This document shows positions 46,909 through 63,894 of a stretch of 64,000 bases of DNA, piece after piece. The notes under the pieces are model-generated. The model was not told the origin of the DNA. It ran no database searches and saw nothing but the letters and a program-made list of their open reading frames with translations. The position numbers and the translations under genes were made by a program. The stretch comes from Hyphomonas sp. (GTDB taxonomy: Bacteria; Pseudomonadota; Alphaproteobacteria; Caulobacterales; Hyphomonadaceae). The stretch is from assembly GCF_013823385.1 (NCBI RefSeq), contig NZ_PNMA01000021.1:1-64000 (forward strand), read 5' to 3'. Within the stretch, counting starts at the first letter, position 1. Each line of letters opens with the position of its first letter.

Positions 46909-47163
46909 GCCTGGACGCGTCCCTCTTCCACCCCTGCCATAGAGGCTGCCCTGCTGCCGAAGTAAACCGCTCCCCCACCAGCCGATGCGCGCCTTGCCGT
47001 CTCCCCCCGGAACAGGGGGGCCTTCCGCGCGCGCCTCAGGCGAGTGTGAGGTCCCTGCCACACTATCACTTTCGATAGCTTGTATCCCGCCCCGCCTTAC
47101 GGGAACCGTGCAGCATTACAGAAGTCTGCCGCCCTCCCAGAGCAGACGTTGCGGAGGAAATCC

Positions 47164-49834: not shown

Positions 49835-51532
49835 TCAGCCTGCGGAAAGTGTCAGCTCGCCGGCCCGCCCGTCTTCGCCGCGCTCTGCGCGCGCCACCAC
49901 CAGGGTGCGTGCTTCAAAGTCGCGCGAGCGCACCGTGCTCATCCCGATATAGTCGGCCTGCGCGCGCTCCCGCGTCAGCGTCAGCAGCACGAAGCCCTTG
50001 TCCTTCACATTGGCAAAGCGCACGCCCCGGTTCTTCTCGGGGATGGCGCGCGCCGCGATCTCGAAGATGCGCGGATCGCTGGTGATATTCTCATATCCCC
50101 CCGGTGAGGTGATGCTGCCGGTGGCAAACTCAACGCCCGCCAACGCCCCGTCGCTCTGCCGGTAGAGGTCGCTTGCCCAGAACATATGGCTGTCCCCCGA
50201 CAGCACCACCAGATTGGCCTGCGCCGCGATGGCGCAGGAGAGCAGCCGCTCGCGCGCCGCCGGATACCCGTCCCAGGAATCCAGGTTCACCGGCAGGCCG
50301 AGCTTCGAGCGCTCCACCCAGCGGGCCGAATAGCCGCCCTTCTCGCGCACGGCCTCCAGAATGTCCTCCGGCAGGAGCGCGGTGTAGTCGGGTGTCCGCA
50401 TCGGCGCCATCACGGTCTGATTGCCCAGCACCTGCCAGGCCGTGCCGGCAGCGGCCGAGCGCTTCAGCTCGCCAGCCAGCCACGCTTCCTGCGGCGCCCC
50501 CAGCATCGTGCGGGCCGGGTCTGCCAGCGGCCCGGCCTCGAAGGCCTCCGGATCGCTCACCCCGCTGAGGCTCAGCGCCTCGCCCCGGCCCGTCAGCCGC
50601 GACTCGATCAGGATCAGCGAGGCGATCTCGCCAAACTCATAGGTCCGCGTCAGCGACCTGGCCGCCTCGCCGGGCGTTGGATCGCGCATCGGCATCCACT
50701 CGAAGTAGGCCTGCAGCGCCGCCTCGCAGCGCGCCGCCCAGCTCCCCTGCGTGTCTTCCTTGTGATTGGCCGCCCCGCCCATCCAGCTGTTGTTGGCCGT
50801 CTCGTGATCGTCCCAGATGGTGATGAACGCGGCGGCGGCATGGGCGGCCTGAAGGTCGGGGTCGCGCCGGTAGGCGGCAAAGCGTGCGCGGTAGTCCTCC
50901 AGCGTCACGGCGTCATGCGCGGGCTCGGCAAACCGCCCCAGCGCGCGGCCGGTCTCCCCGTCATACCCATCCGGCCCGTATTCGTAGATGTAGTCCCCCA
51001 GATGGATCACGGCGTCGATGCCGGGCGTCTCCGCGATGGTCCGGTAGGCGTTGTAGAAGCCGGAGCCGAAATTGGCGCAGGAGGCGACCGCCAGGTGCAC
51101 TTTCTGTCCGGATTTGTCCGGAAGTGTCCGGAATTGTCCAATGCCTGACACCGCCTGTCCGGCGCGGAAGCGGTAAAAGTAGCGATTGCCGGGCGCGAGT
51201 GATTCGACATCCACCTTCAGCGTGTAGTCCCGTGCTGTGGTCGCCAGCCCCGTTCCCTTGCGCACTATCCGGCGGAATCCGGTGTCTTCGGCCACCTCAA
51301 ATCCCACCGGAATCGCCGCCACATCCGGGTTGTAGGCCCGCGTCCAGATCACCATCGAGGTCGCCGTGGGGTCGCCGCTCGCCACGCCGGAGGTGAACAC
51401 TGCATCAATATCAGGCGCCTTCCGCGTCGCCGCGCAGCCGCCCAGAAGCGTAAACCCACCCCCCAGCCCCAGCAGCGCCTCGCGCCGGCTGATCCCTGTA
51501 TTGCTTCTGTTTTTTGTCGGGGTTTGTGTCAT
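49835..51532 (-). CDS. phoD: PhoD-family alkaline phosphatase, Tat-exported
   Basis: The 565-residue protein belongs to the PhoD family. It has SGDPTATSMVIWTRA, an N-terminal beta-sandwich domain, LGDYIYEYG (metal ligand Asp), TIWDDHETANNSW, and GDSHMFWASDL near the C terminus. The N terminus has twin-arginine SRREALLGLGG followed by a lipobox-like LLGGC. It is thus exported folded and possibly lipidated. It hydrolyses phosphomono- and diesters with calcium and iron. Residues about 131-144 (GIGQFRTLPDKSGQ) are encoded by a 10-bp repeat array. GGAG precedes the ATG. It is the second secreted phosphatase in the window. Confidence 0.9.
   Translation of the reverse strand: MTQTPTKNRSNTGISRREALLGLGGGFTLLGGCAATRKAPDIDAVFTSGVASGDPTATSMVIWTRAYNPDVAAIPVGFEVAEDTGFRRIVRKGTGLATTARDYTLKVDVESLAPGNRYFYRFRAGQAVSGIGQFRTLPDKSGQKVHLAVASCANFGSGFYNAYRTIAETPGIDAVIHLGDYIYEYGPDGYDGETGRALGRFAEPAHDAVTLEDYRARFAAYRRDPDLQAAHAAAAFITIWDDHETANNSWMGGAANHKEDTQGSWAARCEAALQAYFEWMPMRDPTPGEAARSLTRTYEFGEIASLILIESRLTGRGEALSLSGVSDPEAFEAGPLADPARTMLGAPQEAWLAGELKRSAAAGTAWQVLGNQTVMAPMRTPDYTALLPEDILEAVREKGGYSARWVERSKLGLPVNLDSWDGYPAARERLLSCAIAAQANLVVLSGDSHMFWASDLYRQSDGALAGVEFATGSITSPGGYENITSDPRIFEIAARAIPEKNRGVRFANVKDKGFVLLTLTRERAQADYIGMSTVRSRDFEARTLVVARAERGEDGRAGELTLSAG
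51103..51140. repeat. 10-bp-periodic TGTCCGGA repeat, copy C (inside phoD)
   Basis: Four units (TTTCTGTCCG, GATTTGTCCG, GAAGTGTCCG, GAATTGTCCA) occur in the coding sequence of phoD, on the junction between its beta-sandwich and catalytic domains. The encoded peptide GQFRTLPDKSGQ resembles that encoded by copy B. Confidence 0.75.
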
Positions 51533-51796: not shown

Positions 51797-52510
51797 ATGG
51801 GCACACAAACAAAAACAAGGCCCAGGGAAGATATGGTTCCGTTTCACCAGCAGGGATTCAGCGACGTCCGCCACACTGAGGACTGGGCGCCGGACCTTCA
51901 GAAGTCGAAAGCGTATGAACAGATCCTGCTGGATATCATCCTCGGTGTCCTCCCCCCCAGCGCGCGGCTGGACGAACTCGGTCTCGCCAAACAATACAAT
52001 CTCGGCGTCGCCGGTGTGCGCGACGCGCTCGCCCGGCTGTCCCTGGAAGGCATGGTGCTGCGCCGCCCCCGTTCAGGCACCATCGTTGCCTCCATTGATG
52101 TGCAGGAAGTGCAGCAGGCCTACGAAGTCCGCTGCCTGCTGGAGCCCCAGGCCGCCTTCCTCGCCGCCCAGCACGCCTCCCGCGCCGAAATCGAGGAGAT
52201 CCTCACCGCCTTTGACGGCGCCGAGGCCGCCGCCAAGCGCCGGGATTTTCGCGCCATCATCGCCATGGACCAGAAATTCCACCGCGCCGTCGCCATTGCC
52301 AGCCACAATCTCAGCCTCGCGCGGATCGTCATCAACCTCCACAACAAGGCCGCCCGCTACTGGTACTACTCAATGACCACGCGGCCGGATGAAGACCGGC
52401 TGGAAGACATCGCCAACCACCGCATCGCCGCCAAAGCCATTGCCAAGGGCGATGGCTCGGCCGCCATGAAGGCGATGCTCGTGGTGATGGGCGACAAGAC
52501 CGCCGACTGA
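51797..52510 (+). CDS. GntR-family regulator, FCD subfamily
   Basis: The 237-residue protein has an N-terminal winged helix (about 30-100: AYEQILLDIILGVLPPSARLDELGLAKQYNLGVAGVRDALARLSLEGMVLRRPRSGTIVA in outline). A C-terminal all-helical FCD ligand domain (about 105-230) carries metal/ligand-type residues in YEVRCLLEPQAA, DQKFHRAV and ANHRIAAKAI. FCD regulators usually sense carboxylic acids or pathway intermediates and repress neighbouring catabolic genes. GGGAGC precedes ATG 51797. It heads the Rut-like catabolic locus, and an element shared by three promoters there is a plausible binding site. Confidence 0.88.
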   Translation: MGTQTKTRPREDMVPFHQQGFSDVRHTEDWAPDLQKSKAYEQILLDIILGVLPPSARLDELGLAKQYNLGVAGVRDALARLSLEGMVLRRPRSGTIVASIDVQEVQQAYEVRCLLEPQAAFLAAQHASRAEIEEILTAFDGAEAAAKRRDFRAIIAMDQKFHRAVAIASHNLSLARIVINLHNKAARYWYYSMTTRPDEDRLEDIANHRIAAKAIAKGDGSAAMKAMLVVMGDKTAD

Positions 52511-52762
52511 TCCTTCCGCAATTCGGGCGCCCGCCTGCAGAAACCGCACAGGTTTCGGGCAGTCACTTACTTGATTGATATCCAATCAGGTGAAGCGCTT
52601 TTGCCGTGCGCAGAGCATTGCCCTTTATAAGTATGTCTCCGGAGGGAGGCTTTGCGGGCTCCTGCAGCGCCGCCAGGCCTTGTGCTTTGCCGGAAACCAT
52701 AGTCCCGCAGATTGCTGCACCGCACGATTGCTGGGCGACGCCGCGCCGGACGTGCCGATATT

Positions 52763-52788
52763 TTGAACATGTTAACTGAAATGTTAGT
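52763..52788. promoter_or_regulatory. Operator-like element 2 of the Rut-like locus
   Basis: Half-elements TTGAACATGT and AAATGTTAGT flank spacer TAACTG, matching the elements at 51596 and 59295. An outer inverted repeat TTTGAAC/GTTCAAA encloses it. It lies about 90 bases before the TonB receptor start. Confidence 0.55.
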
Positions 52789-52834
52789 TCAAATATCAGA
52801 TGCGGCTGTTTTTCCGCCCCCGCCTCCCTGAACT

Positions 52835-52871
52835 GACCTCATAGCCAACCCGCCGCAGCCTATGAGGGGTC
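52835..52871 (+). promoter_or_regulatory. Hairpin covering the ribosome-binding site of the TonB receptor gene
   Basis: GACC plus TCATAG (52835-52844) can pair with CTATGA (52860-52865) and GGTC (52868-52871), with two bulged G. The Shine-Dalgarno GAGGGG (52864-52869) lies in the 3' arm, seven bases ahead of the ATG. Translation would be blocked while it is folded. Confidence 0.45.
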
Positions 52872-52877
52872 CAAGAC

Positions 52878-55271
52878 ATGCGAGCACTGTATTACCTGAC
52901 AAGCGTTCTGACTGCCATTGCCCTTGCCAACAGTGCCTGGGCTGAAGATGGACCTGCTCCGGCTACGGAGGATGTGGGCGACGAAACCGCTGTTCTCGAC
53001 ACGGTTGTCGTCGTCAGCGACCGTGTAGGTCTCCTGGAGAAATCCAATAGCGAAAGCGTCTTCGGCATGGGCAAGTCCCTCCTGGAAACGCCGCGCTCGG
53101 CCACGCTTGTCAGCGATCTGACGCTGGAACGCTATGGCATCGAGGAGGTCGACGACCTGATCGCCATCGCGCCGGGCACCTTCACCGGCAGCTATTACGG
53201 CGTCAAAGGCGCTGTGAACGCGCGCGGCACACTGGCAGAAAGCTATTTCAATGGCTTCAAGCGGATCGAGAACCGGGGCACCTATCCGACGCTTCTGGGC
53301 GCGGCGTCCCAGGTAGACATCGTCCGTGGACCGCCCACGCCCGCTTTCGGCCCCGGCAAGGTCGGCGGCCTGATCAACATCATTCCCAAAACTGGCCGCG
53401 CCAATGGCAGCGATGAAGTCACCGGCCAGGCTGAAGTCACCGTCGGTTCGTATGGAAAGTTCAATGCCAATGGCCAGGTCGGTATTCCTGTTGGCACGCG
53501 CGGCGGGGTCTATGGCTATGTCGAATACGAAGATTCAGACTCCTATTATAAAGGCATTTCCCCCGAACACCTGATGATCCAGCTGTCGGGCGAATATGAT
53601 GTCACCGACACGCTCACCGTCACCATGAGCGGCCAGTATTTCGACTCGGACGGCTACGTCCAGACGCCGGGCTGGAACCGTGTCACCCAGGATCTGATCG
53701 ACAACCAGACCTATATCACCGGCCGCAACACGACTGTCGTTGATACCGATGGAAACGGCCGGATCACGCCCGACGAGGCCGGCGGCAGCTTCGTGGTCGG
53801 CTATTTCGGCTTCACGCCTTCCGTCAATCCCCGCTTCCAGCTCACCGAAGGCGTCGGCACGGCAAAGCTCAGCCCCCGCACGGTTTTCATCTCGGACGCC
53901 GACTTCTCGAAGACGACGACCAACACGCTCTATTTCAAGGCCAAACAGGAAATCGGCGAGAGCGCGCTGAATGTCGAGCTGTTCTATGACGACATGGAAA
54001 ACCAGCGCTTCGTCAGCTACGGCTTCCCGGCCGATTATGACGCCTGGGCCGCAGAAGGCCGCATCAGCTATGACTTCTCCACCGGCACGGAAGACAGCTT
54101 CATCCGCTCCACCAACAAGGTCGGCTTCGGATATCGCCGCCAGGACGCGGTCAAGAAGGAAACCTACAACTCCGGCTACATCTCCCTTGACCGCCGCGAC
54201 ATCATCTATGGCGCCACACCCAACGACATCATGGATGATCCGTTCTCGGTAGAGCCCGGCAATATCGGTATCGGCTGGGACATGACCGTCGACTCCAGCT
54301 GGACCGACAAGAGCCTCTTTGGCCTCACCGACATCAGCTTCGGCAAACATGTGAACCTTCTGCTGGGCGGCCGCTATGACTGGTATGATGTCACCACCAT
54401 CGACACCGGCGCCCTCTGCTATTGCCCTGCCAACATTGAGTTCGATGCGACGCAGGAAGAGTTCAGCTACAGCGCAAGTCTCAGCCTGAACGCGCCCTTC
54501 GGCCTCTTCCCCTATGTCACCTATGCCGAAACCGCCGCCCTTGAAATTGGCCAGGCCGGTGACATCGCCCCCGGCCTTGTCAGCAGCAATCAGTGGATCT
54601 CCGACTCCGAGTTGACCGAGGCCGGCGTCAAGTTCGAGCTTCTGAACGGAACGCTCGTCGGCAGCCTCTCCGGCTACGAACAATCGCGCACCCGCCTCTC
54701 GATGTTCAACAATGTCGTCGCCACAGAGGCCAAGGGCATTGAGCTCGAAGCCCGCTGGCTCGCCACCGACAATCTCTCCTTCACCTTCGCCGGCAACACC
54801 CAGAAAACCACCGTAAAAGGCCCCGATGCCAGCTTCGGCTATGTCCCCGTCTGGGCCACCGGCCTCAACCCCATCGATGGCTATGGCGCAGCCTATGCCG
54901 TCTACAACCTAGCCACCTCGCCCATCGGCCAGCCCGGCGATTACGAATACCGCCTCGTCCCGCAAACCGTGGTCAGCCTCTTTGGCTCCTATGTGTCGGA
55001 CGCTTATGAGTGGGGCCAGTTCGGCGTCACCGGCGGCATCACCAGCGTCTCCGAAACCGCCGGCAAGCTGCGCGATCCGATCATCCTGCCAGCCTATGAA
55101 ACCGTAAACCTCTCTGCCTTCTATGCATTCGACGGCTATGAAGTCGCCTTCAATGTCGACAACGTCTTTGACGAACTCTACTTCCAGCCGGTTACCGACA
55201 GCTATTCCGATATGGCTGTCCTGCCGGGGCGCGGCCGGGAATACCGCGTCACCTTCAAGAAGAAGTTCTGA
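52878..55271 (+). CDS. TonB-dependent receptor of the Rut-like locus
   Basis: The 797-residue outer-membrane receptor has a signal peptide (cleaved near SAWAED), a TonB-box-like VLDTVVVVSDR, a plug domain (about 55-170, with VDIVRGPPTPAFGPGKVGGLINIIPK) and a beta barrel ending YRVTFKKKF. The N-terminal half is of siderophore-receptor type. Residues 289-300 (DTDGNGRITPDE) are a canonical EF-hand calcium loop in what should be a surface loop. It is the first gene of an operon with the RutB-like hydrolase, M20, flavin reductase and MFS genes. The operon context suggests it imports the locus's substrate, which should be too big for porins. Confidence 0.9.
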   Translation: MRALYYLTSVLTAIALANSAWAEDGPAPATEDVGDETAVLDTVVVVSDRVGLLEKSNSESVFGMGKSLLETPRSATLVSDLTLERYGIEEVDDLIAIAPGTFTGSYYGVKGAVNARGTLAESYFNGFKRIENRGTYPTLLGAASQVDIVRGPPTPAFGPGKVGGLINIIPKTGRANGSDEVTGQAEVTVGSYGKFNANGQVGIPVGTRGGVYGYVEYEDSDSYYKGISPEHLMIQLSGEYDVTDTLTVTMSGQYFDSDGYVQTPGWNRVTQDLIDNQTYITGRNTTVVDTDGNGRITPDEAGGSFVVGYFGFTPSVNPRFQLTEGVGTAKLSPRTVFISDADFSKTTTNTLYFKAKQEIGESALNVELFYDDMENQRFVSYGFPADYDAWAAEGRISYDFSTGTEDSFIRSTNKVGFGYRRQDAVKKETYNSGYISLDRRDIIYGATPNDIMDDPFSVEPGNIGIGWDMTVDSSWTDKSLFGLTDISFGKHVNLLLGGRYDWYDVTTIDTGALCYCPANIEFDATQEEFSYSASLSLNAPFGLFPYVTYAETAALEIGQAGDIAPGLVSSNQWISDSELTEAGVKFELLNGTLVGSLSGYEQSRTRLSMFNNVVATEAKGIELEARWLATDNLSFTFAGNTQKTTVKGPDASFGYVPVWATGLNPIDGYGAAYAVYNLATSPIGQPGDYEYRLVPQTVVSLFGSYVSDAYEWGQFGVTGGITSVSETAGKLRDPIILPAYETVNLSAFYAFDGYEVAFNVDNVFDELYFQPVTDSYSDMAVLPGRGREYRVTFKKKF

Positions 55272-55292
55272 GAACGGATAAATTGAGCTCCC

Positions 55293-55360
55293 TGCCGGGA
55301 ACCGGTCCTGCTGCCTCCCCCAATGCCCTCCCGCTGGGCTTGCAGGACCGGTACTCGGCA
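55293..55360 (+). other. Long intercistronic hairpin
   Basis: ACCGGTCCTGC (55301-55311) pairs perfectly with GCAGGACCGGT (55342-55352). After one A-A mismatch, TGCCGGG (55293-55299) pairs with CTCGGCA (55354-55360), one G-U included. That gives 18 pairs around a 30-base loop and no T-tract. It lies between the TonB receptor and the RutB-like gene, so partial termination, processing or stabilisation of the receptor mRNA is likely. Confidence 0.6.
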
Positions 55361-55393
55361 GAGGAGAAGAAAAGGGAGTGTTTGCGATGAGGA

Positions 55394-56044
55394 ATGCCTG
55401 TGAAACCGAAACCCGCCTATCCTGACACCCTCGCTGGCTGGATCGCGCCCGAACGCACGGCGGTCCTCGTGGTGGACATGCAGGTCGATTTCGCCTCGCC
55501 CGAGGGCGTGCTCGGCCAGGCGGGGCTGGACATGAGCGTCACTGCGCCCGCCGTCGGCGCTGCCACGCGGCTGGTGGATGCCGCCCGCGCCGCCGGCACG
55601 CCGGTGATCTTTGTGGGCCTGGCCACCACGCCCGCCACAGACTCCCCGGTCTGGGGCGAGTGGCGCCGCCGCCGCGACGGCGAAGACAGCGGCGGGGCGA
55701 TCTGCCGGGCCGGAGCGCCGGGCTCGGCTTTCGTCGGCCCGACGCCTCAGCCAGGCGAAACCGTCATCTGGAAACTGCGTTACAGTGGCTTCTTCGGCAC
55801 AAGCCTTGACGCCGCCCTGCGTGCCCGCGGCATTGATACCGTGATCGTCTGCGGCCTGACCACCGAATGCTGCGTCGATTGCAGCGTGCGCGACGCGTTC
55901 CATCTCGATTATTTCGTCTACGTGCCCACAGACGCCTGCGCGGCCTACGATCCCGGCATCCATGAAAGCGCGCTGCAATCGCTGGCACTGAACTGCGCCA
56001 CGCTCGTCTCCACTGACGAAATCTGCGCCGCCTGGGCCGAATAA
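55394..56044 (+). CDS. Isochorismatase-fold cysteine hydrolase, RutB-like
   Basis: The 216-residue protein has the cysteine-hydrolase triad: Asp in VLVVDMQVDFA (about residue 28), Lys in VIWKLRYSGFFGT (about 124) and Cys in GLTTECCVDCSVRDA (about 158). RYSGFFGTSLD and the RDAFHLDYF stretch resemble RutB, which hydrolyses the ureidoacrylate product of RutA; other relatives are N-carbamoylsarcosine and maleamate amidases. It would cleave an amide or carbamoyl bond in the opened ring. GAGGA lies close to the ATG. It is second in the operon, 19 bases before the first M20 gene. Confidence 0.82.
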   Translation: MPVKPKPAYPDTLAGWIAPERTAVLVVDMQVDFASPEGVLGQAGLDMSVTAPAVGAATRLVDAARAAGTPVIFVGLATTPATDSPVWGEWRRRRDGEDSGGAICRAGAPGSAFVGPTPQPGETVIWKLRYSGFFGTSLDAALRARGIDTVIVCGLTTECCVDCSVRDAFHLDYFVYVPTDACAAYDPGIHESALQSLALNCATLVSTDEICAAWAE

Positions 56045-56062
56045 AAACAAGAAAGTATCCCA

Positions 56063-57436
56063 ATGAGTAACGTGTTCCCGAATCTGCCAGAGGCGAACTA
56101 TCTCGTCACGGAGGAAGACGCCACTGCCCTCGCCGCCGCCATCGACAAGGAAGAGATGACCCGGGTGGCGCTGGAGCTGGGCAACATCCCCAGCCCCGCG
56201 CGCGGAGAGGCGCAGGCCGCCGAATATGTCTATCAGTGGATGGCAAAGGAAGGCTTCCGGCCCCGCAAGGTCGGCGCCACGCCCGAGCGCCCGAACATCA
56301 TCGCCACCTATGGCGGCAAGGGCGATGGAAAAAGCCTTCTCTACACGGCGCATCTGGATACCGAAAGCCCGACCTGGAACCCGGACGAAGACGCCTACAA
56401 ATTCCGGCCGGAAACCCTGGACGTGCGCGAATGGAACGAATGCTGGCTGGAAGACGGCGCCTTCCACGGCTTCCCCATCGCGAATGATCGCGGCCCCATG
56501 ACGTGCTTCCTCTTTGCGGCCAAGGCGCTGAAACAATGCGGCTTCGACCTTGCCGGCCGGCTCTATCTCACCGCTTCCCCCGGCGAAATCGGCCCCGAGC
56601 CGATTGAGGAAGCGCGCGGCATCGACTTCATGGGCAAGGATATCGGCACGCATTACGTGTTCAACCATGGCGGCGTCTCGCCCGATTATGCCATCGCCGC
56701 CGAAGGCTGCGATTATGGGCTCACCTGGGTCGGCTGCGGCTACGCCGTCTTCCGTATACGCCTCTACGGCGAGGCGATCTTCACGCCCCTCCTCACATCT
56801 CCGAAGAAAGCCGCCCAGCATCCCAACCCCATCTATCGCATGGGCGCGGCTATCCAGCCGATCCTTGACTGGAGCCTCAAATTCGAGGCCGAGAGCCGCT
56901 ACGAGACCGCAGGCGGCGCCGCCCATCCCAAGGCACAGATCTCCGCCGTGCGCGGCGGGGTGCCCCATGCCTTTGGTGCGGGCACGGAAGTCTGCGCGCT
57001 CTATCTGGAAGTCGGCCTCGCCCCCAATCAGGAAATCGGCGCCGTCCACCGCAGCCTGGAACAATACCTGCGCGCGGCAAAGATCGGCGAGTTCGATGTC
57101 GAACCCGTCGTCGTCCGCCATGGTTTCGAGGCCGATGCCGGCAAAGTCGCCCCGCTGGTCAGCGCGGTCGACGCCGCCACGCGCCTCACCCTGGGAAAAC
57201 CGGTCGAGCGCGCCGCGCCCGTCTATTCCAGCATGTGGCGCGATCATAACGTGTTCAACATGAACCGCGTGCCGGCCATCACCACAGGCTTCAAACGCTG
57301 GCGTCCGACCCCGGATGATCTGGCCAAAAGCGCGCTGATCTACGCCCTCACCGCTCTCGCCCTTTGCGGCAAGGCTGGCAGCGAGGCCAAGACAAAGCGC
57401 ACCAAGCCGGTCTATGGCGACAACCCGTTCGGCTGA
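56063..57436 (+). CDS. M20-family metallopeptidase/amidohydrolase, copy 1
   Basis: The 457-residue protein has all M20 metal and catalytic positions: His97 and Asp99 (TAHLDTES), Asp142 (ANDRGPM), Glu182-Glu183 (GPEPIEE), Glu214 (IAAEG) and a C-terminal His (SSMWRDHNVFN). M20 enzymes hydrolyse amide bonds of small N-acyl, N-carbamoyl or dipeptide substrates using one or two zinc ions. No signal peptide is present, so it acts in the cytoplasm. The C terminus ends VYGDNPFG. A paralogue lies at 61901-63265 in the same locus. The pair differs mainly in the region after HLDTE, probably the substrate pocket. Confidence 0.87.
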   Translation: MSNVFPNLPEANYLVTEEDATALAAAIDKEEMTRVALELGNIPSPARGEAQAAEYVYQWMAKEGFRPRKVGATPERPNIIATYGGKGDGKSLLYTAHLDTESPTWNPDEDAYKFRPETLDVREWNECWLEDGAFHGFPIANDRGPMTCFLFAAKALKQCGFDLAGRLYLTASPGEIGPEPIEEARGIDFMGKDIGTHYVFNHGGVSPDYAIAAEGCDYGLTWVGCGYAVFRIRLYGEAIFTPLLTSPKKAAQHPNPIYRMGAAIQPILDWSLKFEAESRYETAGGAAHPKAQISAVRGGVPHAFGAGTEVCALYLEVGLAPNQEIGAVHRSLEQYLRAAKIGEFDVEPVVVRHGFEADAGKVAPLVSAVDAATRLTLGKPVERAAPVYSSMWRDHNVFNMNRVPAITTGFKRWRPTPDDLAKSALIYALTALALCGKAGSEAKTKRTKPVYGDNPFG

Positions 57437-57451
57437 GAGGAGACGGCAGAC

Positions 57452-57964
57452 ATGTCCCACCCCATCGACGCATCCCTCTGGCGCGAAGCCATGGGCGGCT
57501 TCCTCACCGGCGTCACCGTCGTCACGACACTGAGCGGTGACCGGATCGCCGGCACCGCTGTCAACGCCTTCTCCGCCGTTTCGCAGGCCCCGCCCCTGCT
57601 GCTCGTCTGCCTCGACCGGTCAAGCCGCTCGCTGGAAGCCATCCGCAGCGCGGGCTTCTTCGCCGTCAACATCCTTTCCGAAACGCATATGGAAGTTGTG
57701 CGCCGCTTTTCCTCCAAGAGCGCGGAAGACCGCTTCCAGGGCGTCGCTCACGCCCCCGCGACCACCGGCGCGCCTATACTCGCAGGCTCCGTCGCCTGGT
57801 TCGATTGCGAGGTTCACGCCATCCATGAGGGCGGTGATCATGAGATCGTCGTCGGCCGTGTGCTGGAGCTCGGCTCCAACAAGGCCGCCGCGCCGCTCGC
57901 CTATCATCGCGGCAATATCTGGTGTCTCGATCCGCGCGAACCCGTTCCCGAAGGGCGCTCATGA
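57452..57964 (+). CDS. Flavin reductase, RutF-like
   Basis: The 170-residue split-barrel protein belongs to the flavin reductase (HpaC/RutF) family. It has FREAMGGFLTGVTVVTT-type start (WREAMGGFLTGVTVVTT), NAFSAVSQAPPLLLVCLDRSSRS, FFAVNIL, and a GDHEIVVGRVLE segment. It would supply reduced FMN from NAD(P)H to the RutA-like monooxygenase in the adjacent transcription unit. GAGAGGAGA precedes the ATG. Its stop overlaps the ATG of the MFS gene by four bases. No other flavin reductase is in the window, so it is the natural partner of the RutA-like enzyme. Confidence 0.88.
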   Translation: MSHPIDASLWREAMGGFLTGVTVVTTLSGDRIAGTAVNAFSAVSQAPPLLLVCLDRSSRSLEAIRSAGFFAVNILSETHMEVVRRFSSKSAEDRFQGVAHAPATTGAPILAGSVAWFDCEVHAIHEGGDHEIVVGRVLELGSNKAAAPLAYHRGNIWCLDPREPVPEGRS

Positions 57965-59226
57965 GCCCTCCCGAAAAAGGCGGCGCCCCCCACCTGACCG
58001 GCACGGCCGCGCTCGTTCGCGTCATGGCCGACACCGCCTATCGCAGCCTCTTCCTCGCCTCCACCGCCATGATGGCCAGCCAGTGGATGCAGCGCATCGC
58101 GCTCGGCTGGATCATGTGGGAACTGACGGGCTCAACCACCTGGCTCGGCCTCCTGGCCAGCGCCGAACTTCTCCCCGGCCTCTTCTTCGGCCCGCTTGGC
58201 GGCGTCCTGGCAGACCGGATGAACCGTAAGCGGATCGTCCTCCTCTGCCAGATGGCCGCGCTGCTGATCTCCGTCGCCACCGGTCTCGCCGTCTTCCTCG
58301 GCCTCTCCACGCCGCTGCTGCTGATGGCGCTCACAGCCGCCGGCGGCATCGCTGCCGCCCTCCAGGAATCCGCGCGCACGCTGCTGCTGCGCGACGCCAC
58401 CCCGCGTGACTGCCTGCCCACTGGCATGTCGATGACCGCCATCTCCGTCAACGTCACCCGCTTCCTCGGCCCGGCGCTCGCCGGTCCGCTCGTCATCTGG
58501 CCCGGTCCCGCCTCGATCTTCTGGATCAATGCCGCCGTCTCCCTCGTGATGATCGCCACGGTCCTCAGCCTGCGGCACCTCCACGCCTCCGGCACAGGCT
58601 TCCCCCCGCGCGAAGCCTTCCTCCGCCAGCTCTGGACCGGCATGAAGGCCGCCTCCAGCCACAGCGTCGTCACGCCGGTTCTCCTGATCTTCGCCGCCAC
58701 CGCCTTCCTCGTGCGCCCCGTCTACGAGCTGATGCCCGCCTTCGCAGACCGCCTCTTCGGCGGCAATGTGCAGGATTATTCCTACCTGATCATGGGCGTC
58801 GGCGCGGGCGCCGTCATCGGCGCGGTCATCGTCACGCTGAACGCGCCGGCCCGGCCCGCGATAATGTTCTTCTGGTCGTCGCTCGCCGCCTGCCTCTCGC
58901 TCATCGCCTTTTCGGCCACGCCGGGCATCCTCTCGGCCACGCTGGCCGCCACCATCCTCGGCTTCTTCATGTGTATCAGCGCGGCCACCTCCCAGCTGGT
59001 CATGGTTCTGGATACGGAGGAATCGGTTTCCGGCCGCGTGCTCAGCCTCTGGGGCGCGCTGATGCGCGGCGCCCCCGCCCTCGGCGCGCTGGCCACCGGC
59101 GCGGTACTGGACGGGATGGGATACCGCCTCCCCCTCGCCCTCTCCGGCCTCGCCGCCGCCCTGCTCACAGGCGCGGCCCTCGTCCTCTTCACCCGCAGCC
59201 CCGGCGCCCGGCCGGGCGCTGCCTGA
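57961..59226 (+). CDS. MFS transporter, DHA3/EntS-like
   Basis: The 421-residue carrier has about 12 hydrophobic segments and the motif GGVLADRMNRKRIVLL (cytoplasmic loop 2-3) typical of the major facilitator superfamily. The N-terminal MADTAYRSLFLASTAMMASQWMQ resembles drug or siderophore exporters of the DHA3 group. In this operon it could export a toxic product or, less typically, import a ring intermediate. The start overlaps the flavin reductase stop (ATGA), so translation is coupled. It is the last gene of the first operon. Confidence 0.85.
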   Translation: MSPPEKGGAPHLTGTAALVRVMADTAYRSLFLASTAMMASQWMQRIALGWIMWELTGSTTWLGLLASAELLPGLFFGPLGGVLADRMNRKRIVLLCQMAALLISVATGLAVFLGLSTPLLLMALTAAGGIAAALQESARTLLLRDATPRDCLPTGMSMTAISVNVTRFLGPALAGPLVIWPGPASIFWINAAVSLVMIATVLSLRHLHASGTGFPPREAFLRQLWTGMKAASSHSVVTPVLLIFAATAFLVRPVYELMPAFADRLFGGNVQDYSYLIMGVGAGAVIGAVIVTLNAPARPAIMFFWSSLAACLSLIAFSATPGILSATLAATILGFFMCISAATSQLVMVLDTEESVSGRVLSLWGALMRGAPALGALATGAVLDGMGYRLPLALSGLAAALLTGAALVLFTRSPGARPGAA

Positions 59227-59294
59227 TCCGGAGCGCCCGTCATGCCCGCCCGATGGTCAATTGATAGGCAACACCAACCATATCTGACGCAGTT

Positions 59295-59320
59295 TCTGAC
59301 ATTTTGTCTGAAATGTCAGA
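59295..59320. promoter_or_regulatory. Perfect palindromic operator-like element 3
   Basis: TCTGACATTT (59295-59304) and AAATGTCAGA (59311-59320) form a perfect 10-bp inverted repeat around TGTCTG. The same layout occurs in weaker form at 51596 and 52763. It lies 72 bases upstream of the second MFS gene and is the strongest candidate operator of the locus. Confidence 0.7.
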
Positions 59321-59391
59321 TTTCGAAACCCTGGCCCGCGATCTGCAACGCGGCCCCCGCTAAAAAGAATTGAAGCGCAAGAGAGAGACAG

Positions 59392-60768
59392 ATGCTGACT
59401 TCCGGAATCTTCAAATCCGTCCGCTCCGTGTCTCCGCTGGCCGGAGGCCATCTGGCAACGCTCAGCACGCTGGACCTGCTGATCAGCGCGGCCACCTTCT
59501 CTTCCCTCGGCATCGTCCTGCCCCATATGGTGTCAGAGCTTGAGTGGAGCTGGTCCCAGGCCGGCCTCGGCTTTACCATCCTCGGCGCGGCTTGCGGCGG
59601 CTCCTCCCTCCTGCCCACCCTGCTCATCCGCAAGTTCGGCGTCCGCCTCGCGCTCATCTGCGGCGCCCTGCTGATGGCGCTTGGCCTCTACACGATGAGT
59701 TCGGTGAGCAGCCTGCTGCAATATTTCGTCGCCGCGGCCATCTGCGGCGTCGCCTATCAGATGCTGGGCACCATCCCGTCCACCTTCGTCATCAGCCGCC
59801 ATTTCAAGAACCGCTCCACCGCGCTCGGCCTCTATTTCACCATCGGCGGCTTTGGAAACGTCTTCGGCCCTTGGATGGTCATGGCCGTCCTCTCGGTCGA
59901 AGGCCAGGTCTGGCGCGACTATTGGGTCTACCAGTCCCTCCTCCTCCTCGCCACAGGCATCGCCGGCGGCCTCATCATCGGCCTCGACAAACGCTTTGCT
60001 CAGCCTGCGGAGCGTGAACTCGAAGAACCGGCCATCGAGAAGAAGATCGAGCCTGCGCCCGCCCCCGGCACCACCTGCGAACCAGCCGCCGCCGCCAAGC
60101 CGTCCCGCGTCTACATCACGCCCGTCGACTGGGGCGTGAAGGAAGCCATGCGCACCCCGCAATACATGATCCTGGTGGCCGCCTATTTCGCAAATCTGAT
60201 GGCCCTGGTCACCGTCACCAGCCTCTCGGTCGGCCATCTCGTGGAGCGCGGCGTCTCGAATGAAACCGCGGGCGCCATGCTCAGCCTGGAGGCCTTCATC
60301 GCCGTGCTCACGCGCATCGGCGGCGGCTTCCTCGGCGAGCGGGTTGATCCGCGCTATCTGATGATCGTGTCCCTCGCCGCCACCTCCATCGGCTGCGCCG
60401 TGCTGGCCACGTCAAACTCCCATTCCATCCTGCTGATCTACGCCATCGGCACAGGCATCGGTTTCGGCCTCACGGCCCTCTCCTGCACCGTTCTGATGAT
60501 GAACTATTTCGGCCAGCGCCATAATCTGGAGCTTTTCTCCTCCATGTGCCTCGTCGGCGCGGCCTCTGCTCTCGGTCCAACGATTGGCGGTGTCATCCGT
60601 GATCTGACGGGAAACTTCATCCTGATGTTCCTGATCCTCTCTGCCGTGGCCGCCATCGTCTGGGTCGCCGTGGTGATGATGCGCGCGCCAAAGCGGGGCG
60701 AAAGCCCGGAAGCGGAGACCGCCGCCCCCGCCCTCGATACCCCGGCCATCGCCGAAAGAACCGCCTGA
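59392..60768 (+). CDS. MFS transporter, monocarboxylate/OFA-like
   Basis: The 458-residue carrier has 12 predicted helices with a long central cytoplasmic loop (about 200-245, Glu/Pro-rich). Features such as GLGFTILGAACGGSSLLPTLLIRKFG, GTIPSTFVISRHFKNRSTALGLYFTIGGFGNVFGP and GGGFLGERVDPRYLMI are typical of the monocarboxylate/oxalate-formate antiporter-like group of the MFS. It probably imports an acidic substrate or exchanges a carboxylate. GCGCAAGAGAGAG precedes the ATG. It heads the second operon (MFS, RutA-like enzyme, M20 copy 2), with operator element 3 upstream. Confidence 0.87.
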   Translation: MLTSGIFKSVRSVSPLAGGHLATLSTLDLLISAATFSSLGIVLPHMVSELEWSWSQAGLGFTILGAACGGSSLLPTLLIRKFGVRLALICGALLMALGLYTMSSVSSLLQYFVAAAICGVAYQMLGTIPSTFVISRHFKNRSTALGLYFTIGGFGNVFGPWMVMAVLSVEGQVWRDYWVYQSLLLLATGIAGGLIIGLDKRFAQPAERELEEPAIEKKIEPAPAPGTTCEPAAAAKPSRVYITPVDWGVKEAMRTPQYMILVAAYFANLMALVTVTSLSVGHLVERGVSNETAGAMLSLEAFIAVLTRIGGGFLGERVDPRYLMIVSLAATSIGCAVLATSNSHSILLIYAIGTGIGFGLTALSCTVLMMNYFGQRHNLELFSSMCLVGAASALGPTIGGVIRDLTGNFILMFLILSAVAAIVWVAVVMMRAPKRGESPEAETAAPALDTPAIAERTA

Positions 60769-60793
60769 AATCCAATACGTGGAGCGAAAAACC

Positions 60794-61867
60794 ATGTTGC
60801 CCAGTCACAAACTGTTCGGTGTCTTCCTGCCCATCGCCAATGGCGGGTGGATCATCTCGAAGAACACGCCCCCGCTCGACGGCCTCTACCAGACCAACCG
60901 GGAAGCGGCGATCATCGCGGATCGCATCGGCCTGGATTTCATCATGTCGATGTCGAAATTCCGCGGCTTTGGCGGCGAGACGAACCATTGGGCCACATCC
61001 ATGGAATCCATGACCATGATGGCCGGCCTCGCCGAGGTCACGAAGAATGTGAAGGTATGGGCCACCGTTCACGCCCTTCTTTCCAATCCCGGCGTCGTCG
61101 CCAAGATGGTCACCACGCTGGACCACATCTCCAATGGCCGCGCCGGCCTCAACATCGTCGCCGGCGCCTACCGCGAGGAATTCTCCCAGATGGGCGCCTG
61201 GGATGACACCCTCACCCATGCCGACCGTTATCAGCTTACGGAAGAATGGATCACCATCATCAAGCGCCTCTGGACCGAGCCGAGCGTCACCTTCAAGGGC
61301 CGCTTCTTTGATATGGAAGATTGCCAGTCCGATCCCAAACCTATCTCAAAGCCGCGTCCGGATCTCATCGCCGCCGGCCAATCCGATCGCGGTTTTGATT
61401 TCTCCACCTCCCATGCCGATGCCTGTTTCATCGGCGGGCGCAGCGTGGAGGAACGCCGGGGCTTCAGCAAGCGGGCCCGCGAGATCGCCGCTGAAAAAGG
61501 CAAGACCATCCGCGTCTGCTCCATGTGTACCGTCATCCATGACGACAGCGACGCCAAGGCTGAAGCCATGCTGCAACGCTTTGAAGATGGCAAGGATCTC
61601 GGCGCCATCATGGCCCAGATGAAAAGCTGGGGCCTCGCGCCAGACAGCCTCGCCGCTGCGGCCCGCAAGATGGGCGCCAGCCAGAACCACACCGTTGTCG
61701 GCTCGCCCGAAACCTGCCGCGAGAAGATCGAGGCCTATATTGAAGCCTGCGATCTTGATGGCGTCATGCTGATCTTCCCCGACTACAAGACCGGCCTCGA
61801 AATGTTCGGCAGCATCCTGCCCAAACTGCGCCAGACCTTTCCGGCAGCAAGCCACGAACCCGCATAA
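60794..61867 (+). CDS. Flavin-dependent monooxygenase, RutA-like (luciferase-like family)
   Basis: The 357-residue luciferase-like (class C) monooxygenase resembles RutA across its N-terminal half: GVFLPIANGGWIIS, LDFIMSMSKFRGFGGET and ESMTMMAGLAEVT parallel the RutA sequence known from E. coli. It also has NGRAGLNIVAGA and CAAGQSDRG-like IAAGQSDRGFDFS. RutA uses reduced FMN and O2 to cleave the N3-C4 amide bond of uracil. This protein is therefore likely to oxidatively open a cyclic amide, with the flavin reductase at 57452 as partner. Start 60794 has GGAG nine bases upstream. The uracil-binding details differ, so the substrate may too. Confidence 0.87.
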   Translation: MLPSHKLFGVFLPIANGGWIISKNTPPLDGLYQTNREAAIIADRIGLDFIMSMSKFRGFGGETNHWATSMESMTMMAGLAEVTKNVKVWATVHALLSNPGVVAKMVTTLDHISNGRAGLNIVAGAYREEFSQMGAWDDTLTHADRYQLTEEWITIIKRLWTEPSVTFKGRFFDMEDCQSDPKPISKPRPDLIAAGQSDRGFDFSTSHADACFIGGRSVEERRGFSKRAREIAAEKGKTIRVCSMCTVIHDDSDAKAEAMLQRFEDGKDLGAIMAQMKSWGLAPDSLAAAARKMGASQNHTVVGSPETCREKIEAYIEACDLDGVMLIFPDYKTGLEMFGSILPKLRQTFPAASHEPA

Positions 61868-61900
61868 TCAGACAACAGACTAACGGAGAGGGAACCCCTC

Positions 61901-63265
61901 ATGGCCGACGGACTGCTCGATACCGCGCTGGGCGCCGGGGTCTCCCCGGAAGACGTACAGGCAATTTCCGATGCCATAGACATCGAGGAGCTGAAAACGC
62001 TCATCCTCGACCTGGCAAACATCTACAGCCCGTCAACCGGCGAAGCGGAAGCCTCCGCCTTTGTCCATGACTGGATGGAGCGCGAGGGCTTCCGCCCGCT
62101 CAGCGTGGGCGCCGTACCCCACCGCCAGAATGTCATCGGCAGCTATGGCGGCAACGGGCCGGGAAAAAACCTTCTGTTCACGGCGCATCTGGATACCGAG
62201 AGCGAGCCTGCCGACCCCGTGATCCTCGCCAAGACAAGGCGGCCTGAAAGCGTGAAAAACCGCGAATGGCGCGAATGCTGGCTGGAAGATGGCAAGTTCT
62301 ATGGCTATGCTGTCGCCAATGATCGCGGCCCCATGTCCTGCATGCTGATGGCCGCCAAGGCGCTCAGAAAGGCCGGCTACGATCTCGCCGGCCGCATGTA
62401 TCTCACCGCCTGCCCCGGCGAATGCGGCCCCGAGCCCATCGAGGAACATGGCGGCATCGACCATATGGGCAAGGAAATCGGCGCCCACTACATGTTCCAT
62501 CATGGCGGCGTCGCGCCCGATTTTGCCATCGCCGCCGAGGGCACCGATTTCGGCGTCACCTGGCTCGGCTGCGGCAGCGCAATGTTCCGTATACGCCTCT
62601 ACGGACAGTCCATCTTTCGTCCGCTCCTGAACGCGCCCAGGGCCACCGCTGATCATCCCAGCTCCATCTACCATCTCGGGCCCGTCATCGAAGCGCTCCA
62701 CGCCTGGTCGCTCGAATACGAAGCCGGCAACGTCTACCGCGCCAGGGGCGGCACCTCCATCCCCAAGGCTACGATCAGCTGCGTCCAGGCCGGCTCCCCC
62801 CATAGCGGGGGAACCGAAATCGCCGCCCTCTATGTCTGCTGCGATCTTACGCCAAAGCAGAAGGCTGCCCAGGTATTGCACGAGCTGGAAGCGGTGATGC
62901 GTTCCCTGCCGGGCATCGAGTTCGAGGTAGAGCCTGTCAATGTCAGCCATGGCTACGAGGCCGATGACGCCGAAGTCGCGCCGCTGGTGGCCGGCGTCGA
63001 CGCCGCCGTCCAGTCCGTACTCGGACAGCCCGTTGAAATCGCCAAGCCGGTCTATTCCAGCATGTGGCGCGACCATAACGTGTTCAACATGCACCGCGTC
63101 CCCGCCATCACATTCGGCCCGGTCCGCTGGCGCCCTTCGCCGGAAGATTTCTTCAAATGCACGCTGATGTATGCCCTCACCGCCCTGTCCATCTGCGGCC
63201 GCGCTGAGGGGGACGTGCACCGGCGCGCGGGCAAGACCGTCTATGGCGACAATCCCTTCGGTTAG
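61901..63265 (+). CDS. M20-family metallopeptidase/amidohydrolase, copy 2
   Basis: The 454-residue paralogue of the protein encoded at 56063 retains His96/Asp98 (TAHLDTE), Asp141 (ANDRGPM), Glu181-Glu182 (GPEPIEE), Glu213 (IAAEG) and the SSMWRDHNVFNMHR His, and it ends VYGDNPFG. It is collinear with copy 1 over its full length. The loop after HLDTE (SEPADPVILAKTRRPESV) and the CPGECG segment differ, suggesting different substrate specificity or a heteromer. GGAGAGGG precedes the ATG. It closes the second operon, 34 bases after the RutA-like gene, and its stop overlaps the convergent TetR gene by four bases. Confidence 0.87.
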   Translation: MADGLLDTALGAGVSPEDVQAISDAIDIEELKTLILDLANIYSPSTGEAEASAFVHDWMEREGFRPLSVGAVPHRQNVIGSYGGNGPGKNLLFTAHLDTESEPADPVILAKTRRPESVKNREWRECWLEDGKFYGYAVANDRGPMSCMLMAAKALRKAGYDLAGRMYLTACPGECGPEPIEEHGGIDHMGKEIGAHYMFHHGGVAPDFAIAAEGTDFGVTWLGCGSAMFRIRLYGQSIFRPLLNAPRATADHPSSIYHLGPVIEALHAWSLEYEAGNVYRARGGTSIPKATISCVQAGSPHSGGTEIAALYVCCDLTPKQKAAQVLHELEAVMRSLPGIEFEVEPVNVSHGYEADDAEVAPLVAGVDAAVQSVLGQPVEIAKPVYSSMWRDHNVFNMHRVPAITFGPVRWRPSPEDFFKCTLMYALTALSICGRAEGDVHRRAGKTVYGDNPFG

Positions 63266-63894
63266 GCCGCAGCGCCGGGCTGTCGATCATCGAGCGCCAG
63301 ATACTTCATCAGCATATCCTGGAAAACCTGCTTCATTTCTTCAATATAGGCAGGATCGCGGGAGACACTTTCGATATACACGCCCCTGTAGAACGCCGCC
63401 ATCACGGCGATCACCACACCGGGCACCCGCAGCCCGGAAAGCTCCGGAAAGAATTCATCATAGCCCGTGATGACTTCTTCAATGCGGGTCTTCGCAGAGC
63501 GCTTGTAGAGCGCCAGCAATTCCTTGTCCGATCGCAGGGCAACGATCAGCTCGAACATGATCGGAAAGATCTCCTGGAACTCGCCCCACAGCACATCCAG
63601 GCGCCCGCGCAGATCCAGATCCGTCTTGCCCTCAAAGGCGCGGTGAACCTTCTCATAGCGCCAGTGTACAAAATGTTGGATGGCAGATGAAGTCAGCTCG
63701 ATCTTGCTGGAATAGTGATGGGTAATCGCGCCCCTGGAAACGCCTGCCGCATCAGCAATGTCCTGCAGCGATACACCGATATATCCCCGCTCCCCGATAC
63801 AGCGCAGCGTTGCATCCAGAACTTTGCGCTGCATGCTTTCGCTGCGGTCTTTCTGGGATCTTCTTTCGCGCTTTTCAGGCTTTTGGTCCGCCAT
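63262..63894 (-). CDS. TetR-family regulator
   Basis: The 210-residue protein has a TetR-type N-terminal helix-turn-helix (about 15-65: QRKVLDATLRCIGERGYIGVSLQDIADAAGVSRGAITHHYSSK in outline) and a helical ligand-binding C-terminal part. GGAGA precedes the ATG. The stop overlaps the M20 copy 2 stop by four bases in convergent orientation, which ties it physically to the locus. A nested inverted repeat just upstream of its start (63902-63943) is a likely autoregulatory operator. Its inducer may be a pathway metabolite. Confidence 0.87.
   Translation of the reverse strand: MADQKPEKRERRSQKDRSESMQRKVLDATLRCIGERGYIGVSLQDIADAAGVSRGAITHHYSSKIELTSSAIQHFVHWRYEKVHRAFEGKTDLDLRGRLDVLWGEFQEIFPIMFELIVALRSDKELLALYKRSAKTRIEEVITGYDEFFPELSGLRVPGVVIAVMAAFYRGVYIESVSRDPAYIEEMKQVFQDMLMKYLALDDRQPGAAA

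Follow-up and report, generated by a model that had tools for sequence, protein, structure and literature searches.

A compact Rut-like gene module in Hyphomonas, possibly directed at a pyrimidinedione fused to an aromatic ring

Two described pathways come closest to the locus reported here. In the Rut system of E. coli (RutA-RutG), RutC is described as deaminating 3-aminoacrylate, an enamine that is also able to deaminate spontaneously (PMC8113886). The breakdown of lumichrome has been reconstituted from Nocardioides simplex: LumU oxidises a methyl group, LumH, an 80-kDa hydrolase, opens the pyrimidine ring, LumI removes urea and LumM hydrolyses the imidamide, after which LumKL, LumJ and two dioxygenases, one of the Rieske and one of the extradiol type, take over (Sinha et al. 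2025, PMC12746152). We analysed a stretch of 64,000 nucleotides of Hyphomonas sp. (contig NZ_PNMA01000021.1, positions 1 to 64,000; hereafter the window), in which an earlier note had named ten genes between positions 51797 and 63894. All ten proved to be open frames at the coordinates it had given, and their scores agree with the families it had named. Among them are a RutA-like monooxygenase dependent on flavin mononucleotide (FMN), here called LLM, a RutB-like protein of the isochorismatase fold (ISO) and two M20 proteins (M20a and M20b). Together they may form a compact module of the Rut kind that acts on a pyrimidinedione with a fused, electron-poor (hetero)aromatic ring, most likely of the flavin type (lumichrome, riboflavin), a reading that we rate as somewhat short of probable. 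Flavin is the leading substrate candidate, and pteridine its main rival.

Judged by its sequence, LLM is not RutA and belongs to a separate clade beside it. It scores 270 bits against the RutA profile (TIGR03612, cut-off 498.3 bits, a value reached by no protein in the whole source genome), 175 bits against SfnG and 141 bits against NtaA/DmoA. It matches RutA in the PDB with an E value of 2.5e-59 and is 36% identical to RutA of Klebsiella. In a midpoint-rooted tree of 94 rows the window LLM lies in a clade of 70 rows (support 100/97), which is joined at 100/100 by four LLMs from clusters of another type (the RidA-type clusters discussed below), with the 20 rows of the RutA side separate; the program flags long branches at these joins. 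A plain Rut operon was ruled out by the RutA score below the cut-off and by the separate clade, and an alkanesulfonate, SfnG or NtaA-type monooxygenase was rejected because these scores are far below that of RutA. The first finding that would have refuted the earlier reading, a place of LLM in a well-characterised non-Rut family, was thus not made.

In RutA, T105 and N134 are reported to hold O2, L65, V136 and F224 to line the O2 pocket, and W139 and E292 to border the substrate side (PMC10005588, PMC7662398). T105, N134, V136 and F224 are invariant in all 70 rows of the LLM clade, while the RutA-side rows themselves carry T105 in ten cases and S in the other ten. Position 139 is A (34 rows) or S (36 rows) throughout the LLM clade and W in 20/20 RutA-side rows; position 292 is variable among the 70. 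The window LLM has Met for L65 and Ala for W139. The comparison with the RutA active site that had been suggested therefore gives a divided answer, with four of the five O2 residues kept and L65 and W139 changed. The pattern suggests an O2 site that is largely preserved and a substrate side that has been opened up.

Related loci were collected from other genomes, giving 75 core loci, 73 of them distinct since two genomes were represented twice (L004 = L078 and L005 = L121). After removal of L045 and L119, which have no LLM, 71 distinct LLM loci remained, 33 in clade A and 38 in clade B. As the sequence around most loci extends about 10 kb in either direction, and around some of them less, all family counts are lower bounds; identity thresholds were of our own choice. 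An ISO homologue is present in all 71. ISO itself scores 118 bits against RutB (TIGR03614, cut-off 378 bits) and 105 bits against BiuH, in both cases below the cut-off and thus outside RutB by that measure, and it is 36% identical to RutB of Klebsiella. The RutB-like motif K.RYS.F was found as a strict pattern in 25/73 loci (two counted twice) and was not used as evidence. The reductase scores 158 bits against HsaB, 133 against FerA and 87 against RutF (TIGR03615, cut-off 255 bits), all below cut-off; its description as RutF-like holds as far as flavin reductase goes, but not for closeness to RutF, as HsaB and FerA score higher.

A sequence search of M20b against the PDB at 0.001 matched only 5-nitroanthranilate aminohydrolase (5NAA-A; E 1.5e-73). 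For M20a an AlphaFold2 model was made (mean predicted local distance difference test score 83.9), and in Foldseek its ranks 1-12 are all 5NAA-A (E 1.1e-43 to 5.6e-41, best identity 34%), followed by the next protein at E 3e-25 and 17% identity. In sequence and fold, 5NAA-A is thus the nearest solved relative. Both M20s lie below the NCBIfam cut-offs; M20b scores 28.4 bits against PF01546 (cut-off 24.6), and for M20a no Pfam model passed at 0.001. H97, D142, E214 and H395 of M20a, which we take to be the M20 metal positions, are invariant across 30 rows. D142 and H395 are present in M20b too, but are replaced by C and T in 5NAA-A, and opposite R289 of 5NAA-A M20b has G, which places M20b outside 5NAA-A by R289 and the metal-site letters. 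The M20s are therefore relatives of 5NAA-A and not members of it. The two are 58% identical and stand in different parts of the tree, the deeper forks of which are weakly supported; the pair did not arise by recent tandem copying, as Euryhalocaulis (L006) and the four compact Hyphomonas genomes all carry both copies. Distant M20s of about 30% identity (L115-L118) have unrelated neighbours among those annotated.

RidA/RutC and RutD were absent from all 75 core loci (73 distinct) when the fetched stretches were searched by tblastn with seven queries, five for RidA/RutC and two for RutD. None of the ten window genes scores as rutC, rutD, rutE or rutG, as had been noted for the locus, where this was looked at, the genome as a whole not having been searched for RutC, RutD, RutE and RutG. 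Because of the kinship with 5NAA-A, together with the absence of RidA/RutC from the core loci, the M20s probably carry out the deamination of RutC on an aromatic amine or amidine. The earlier idea that they trim amides in the ordinary way is revised accordingly by their relation to an enzyme that hydrolyses an aromatic amine. If a 5NAA-A-like M20 replaces RidA, the product would be an aromatic amine or amidine, and the substrate would then be a pyrimidinedione that carries a fused aromatic ring. The hydantoin-like, barbiturate-like or peptide-linked ring that had been proposed gives way to a fused ring on these same two grounds.

We infer each reaction, the order of the steps and the substrate from the observed gene families, conservation and residues and from the lack of RidA in the loci. 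In the proposed scheme the TonB receptor and MFS2 would import the compound, and the flavin reductase would provide FMNH2 to LLM, which would cleave the N3-C4 amide in the manner of RutA to give an ortho-ureido carboxylate. ISO would hydrolyse the ureide, with release of NH3 and CO2, to an ortho-amino or ortho-amidino carboxylate. An M20 enzyme would then hydrolyse that C-N bond to C=O/C-OH and NH3 in place of RutC, acting on an amine that is presumably not readily hydrolysed by itself. The product of the window module would probably be exported by MFS1, in which case the module would harvest nitrogen. In extended relatives it may be processed further by TauD, Rieske, LigB and FmdA enzymes.

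The gene order is conserved in relatives, so the second refuting finding was likewise not made, and the earlier view of a Rut-like ring-opening module that diverged from uracil is supported. The ten-gene order recurs in one further Hyphomonas locus (genome G015, L076) and in H. polymorpha (L121), nine of the ten genes stand in order in genome G022 (L078; the TetR gene is unmatched), and eight of them keep this order in Euryhalocaulis (L006). With M20b as bait over genome contigs, 59 loci were obtained, including Hyphomonas, Caulobacter, Phenylobacterium, sphingomonads, Alteromonas, Nitrospirillum and Paraburkholderia; in this M20-chosen sample LLM and ISO homologues were within reach in 58/59 loci, the exception (L045) having just 757 bases before its M20 match. 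From the side of LLM, a survey with no more than five candidates scored in each genome found a close LLM (E < 1e-100) in 5/385 genomes of the class, with ISO adjacent in all five and a close M20 in three (one on another contig). The M20 was detected at E 1e-30 in 2/398 genomes of the phylum and in 8/37 Hyphomonas genomes, the window's own included in both counts. The gene system is rare. Within the 71 LLM loci, M20 is present in 63. The eight without it include four extended Hyphomonas loci, where M20 lies about 15 kb upstream, L120, with M20 on another contig, L112 and L113 (see below), and L070. Plasmids of P. graminis and A. baumannii carry the order MFS-LLM-ISO-M20-reductase, and a Kozakia plasmid the extended gene set. 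The minimal five-gene module of the A. baumannii plasmid p2DB053, which is typed mobilizable, lies between insertion-sequence genes. No paper on this gene combination was found in the open-access literature.

Many relatives are surrounded by genes for possible later steps. Rieske genes were found in 38/71 LLM loci (12 clade A, 26 clade B), FmdA in 37/71 (11 and 26), LigB in 32/71 (10 and 22), VOC genes in 11 clade-A and 28 clade-B loci, and TauD of neighbour family c2 in 21 and 26. Rieske, LigB, FmdA and ribokinase genes fit what the breakdown of a benzenoid ring, an amide like oxamide and a chain derived from ribose would call for. The neighbour families further include an AraC regulator (c15) and an AraC-FmdA fusion (c8). 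The latter joins an AraC/FeaR-type regulator to an FmdA/AmdA amidase in a protein of about 790 amino acids (L057:11436-13811, the locus in which the Pfam domains were determined), and 33/38 clade-B loci have a match that covers 85% or more of it; the amidase domain may be the sensor of the regulator. Judged by the gene content of its relatives, the window locus is probably a compact form that lacks the later steps. No FmdA was found at E 1e-20 in the four compact Hyphomonas genomes, of which three have a Rieske paralogue of 33% identity and one none, whereas the four extended Hyphomonas genomes hold FmdA and Rieske in the cluster at 69-79% identity. By this contrast, the window form probably goes no further than the reaction of the M20. 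LigB does not separate the two forms, with matches of 39-44% outside the cluster in compact genomes and of 33-40% inside it in extended ones.

A number of observations weigh against a flavin-type module of this kind. Position 65 is M in all 70 LLM-clade rows and L in 18/20 RutA-side rows, and S139 is also found in the four RidA-type sister rows, so that loss of W139 is no proof of a fused ring. The reductase was within reach in 28/33 clade-A loci but in only 1/38 clade-B loci. Ribokinase, present in 33/71 loci, is concentrated in clade B (32/38) as against a single locus (1/33) of clade A, to which the window belongs, and none of the later-step families was within reach in 7 clade-B and 14 clade-A loci (two genomes counted twice). 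L112 and L113 have LLM and ISO, and no M20 was found in their genomes at E 1e-40. The families of LumI and LumM are not named in the main text of the lumichrome study, and the strain Pseudomonas RF made urea, which a RutB-like ISO would not (PMC12746152). No counterparts of LumKL, LumJ or LumU were recognised among the annotated conserved neighbour families. The loci L112 and L113, from one genus, read GntR-MFS-LLM-ISO-TonB with no M20 or reductase nearby, and in L112 a metallophosphatase frame follows.

The same chemistry by LLM, ISO and M20 would also convert a pteridine (lumazine, or a pterin deaminated beforehand) to a hydroxypyrazine carboxylate. We regard this as unlikely, though it is the strongest of the alternatives. 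An amidohydrolase resembling TRZ/ATZ/5'-deoxyadenosine deaminase, which would suit a pterin and to that extent speaks against a flavin, adjoins ISO in L120, but it was found in just 9/71 loci, none of clade A, and a benzenoid ring would agree better with the Rieske oxygenase and the LigB extradiol enzyme that extended loci contain. Somewhat less likely still is a monocyclic modified pyrimidine or a hydantoin-, barbiturate- or amide-linked ring, with the M20s as ordinary amidases. The closeness of LLM to RutA would agree with it, and the thiaminase genes of L072 and L125 and the annotated pyrimidine deformylase of L125 indicate that the wider LLM family already has monocyclic-pyrimidine contexts. 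Such a ring, however, would yield an enamine, a Rid-type substrate, and Rid-family genes occur in 4/4 sister-clade loci against 0/73 distinct core loci, which have M20s of the 5NAA-A type instead.

TgnAB are two-component LLM enzymes that open pyridine rings, and a trigonelline- or pyridine-like substrate might accordingly be opened by LLM, with M20 and FmdA acting as deformylases and ISO serving as an amidase of the maleamate type. The FmdA amidases of extended loci would fit, but ISO scores best against RutB and BiuH, both enzymes of ureide-type bonds, and LLM groups beside RutA, which makes a pyridine improbable. Least credible, with hardly any weight, is the breakdown of an iron chelator, taken up by a siderophore-like TonB receptor, with an EntS-like MFS1 and with LLM, ISO and M20 cutting amides: the best score of the receptor is indeed to TIGR01783 and MFS1 reaches 113 bits to EntS, but both scores are far below cut-off, MFS1 relatives occur in only 4/71 loci and clade B has no receptor of this kind.

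The features of the locus are listed in Table 1. ATG 60794 is the likelier start of LLM as read from the sequence, and ATG 57961 that of MFS1 because of its 4-bp overlap with the reductase gene. Relatives of the TonB receptor were found in 25/33 clade-A and 0/38 clade-B loci, and relatives of MFS2 in 30/33 and 27/38. The GntR regulator is also present in three other compact Hyphomonas loci; the TetR regulator was matched in L076 and L121 and had no match in L078. The core pattern of the palindrome ahead of MFS2 occurs once in the window and in 0/100 shuffles. It was also found in L076, and not in L004, L005, L006, L078 or L121; it is a possible operator of TetR or GntR. A scan for promoters and terminators gave a number of sites below the shuffle mean and was not used. 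Just upstream of the locus lie a further TonB receptor (47080-49752, +) and a frame named by eye as a PhoD-like phosphatase (49835-51532, -). In L121 both adjoin the locus (PhoD-like frame 91%, receptor 97% identity, the latter cut by the end of the stretch). Frames downstream of the locus were named by eye as bioD-, bioF- and bioA-like.

Table 1 Features of the Hyphomonas locus, with positions in the window
Feature	Position	Strand	Basis
GntR/FCD-family regulator	51797..52510	+	FCD 85 bits, GntR 44 bits
TonB-dependent receptor, siderophore-receptor subfamily scores best	52878..55271	+	Pfam plug and barrel; TIGR01783 96 bits, cut-off 224
ISO, isochorismatase-fold, RutB/biuret-hydrolase-like	55394..56044	+	PF00857 152 bits; putative ureide hydrolase
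M20a, 5-nitroanthranilate aminohydrolase relative	56063..57436	+	AlphaFold2 model and Foldseek
Flavin reductase	57452..57964	+	PF01613 138 bits; putative FMNH2 supply to LLM
MFS1, EntS/H+-antiporter-like, probable exporter	57961..59226	+	MFS_3 132 bits; TIGR00900 128 and EntS 113 bits, both below cut-off
Palindrome TCTGACATTTTGTCTGAAATGTCAGA, possible operator, ahead of MFS2	59295..59320		Pattern scan against shuffles
MFS2, monocarboxylate/oxalate-formate-like, probable importer	59392..60768	+	MFS_1 104 bits
LLM, RutA-like two-component FMN monooxygenase	60794..61867	+	RutA 270 bits, cut-off 498
M20b, second 5-nitroanthranilate aminohydrolase relative	61901..63265	+	PDB sequence matches to 5NAA-A alone
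TetR-family regulator, convergent with the operon	63262..63894	-	TetR_N 53 bits

If the proposed scheme is correct, it would provide a gene-level handle on the breakdown of flavins or pteridines by Gram-negative bacteria. It would also offer a rule, in that the enzyme following RutB-type hydrolysis, Rid or 5NAA-A-type M20, tells a single from a fused ring. In addition, a function would be suggested for M20 genes on plasmids, which in the three plasmid records of these M20s are annotated as 'hypothetical protein' (two) or 'peptidase M20' (one). A bolder and rather doubtful extension is that Gram-negative bacteria break down flavins by a second route, oxidative in kind, with the C-ring opened by an enzyme that itself depends on flavin. 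The extended clusters would then contain genes similar to those of the lost pathway of Pseudomonas RF, and the M20s of the clade would be a family of heteroaryl-amidine hydrolases acting in place of RutC.

Compared with the known systems, the locus resembles Rut of E. coli in combining a two-component FMN monooxygenase and a RutB-like hydrolase in one operon, and differs from it in holding M20s, a TonB receptor and MFS carriers instead of RutC, RutD, RutE and RutG. Nearer in the LLM tree are the RidA-type RutA-like clusters of Pantoea, Rhizobium, Cupriavidus and Paracoccaceae plasmids, whose LLMs form the sister clade and carry S139. They differ in their Rid-family genes (L071, L072, L124, L125) and ABC transporters, and none of them has an M20 of this family that reaches 30% identity, the two weak M20 matches lying at 22-23%. 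Among them, L072, L124 and L125 (Rhizobium, Pantoea and Paracoccaceae plasmids) hold Rid proteins beside ABC transporters of the BMP/purine-binding type, L072 and L125 with thiaminase II, a group possibly concerned, from its gene content, with breakdown of the thiamin pyrimidine. L071 (Cupriavidus pENH92) has a RutA-like LLM, RidA, a Rieske/VanB pair and a formaldehyde dehydrogenase near ribA/ribBA, and could break down an N-methylated pyrimidine. 5NAA-A (PDB 5k8m-p) is likened to the M20s because M20b matches no other protein of the PDB by sequence at 0.001 and M20a has it as its best match in fold, at 34% identity. The lumichrome pathway differs in that its ring is opened by LumH and not, as proposed for the window, by a flavin monooxygenase, and of its features no P450, thiamine pyrophosphate decarboxylase or xanthine-oxidase family was recognised among annotated neighbours. 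It is alike in the logic of the proposed steps of ring opening, ureide hydrolysis and imidamide hydrolysis; ISO (216 aa) and M20a (457 aa) fit LumI and LumM in size, and the extended relatives have Rieske and extradiol-type enzymes as well. The earlier note knew of no described pathway of this composition, a statement that now needs amending: the first three proposed steps have a close parallel in LumH-LumI-LumM (PMC12746152).

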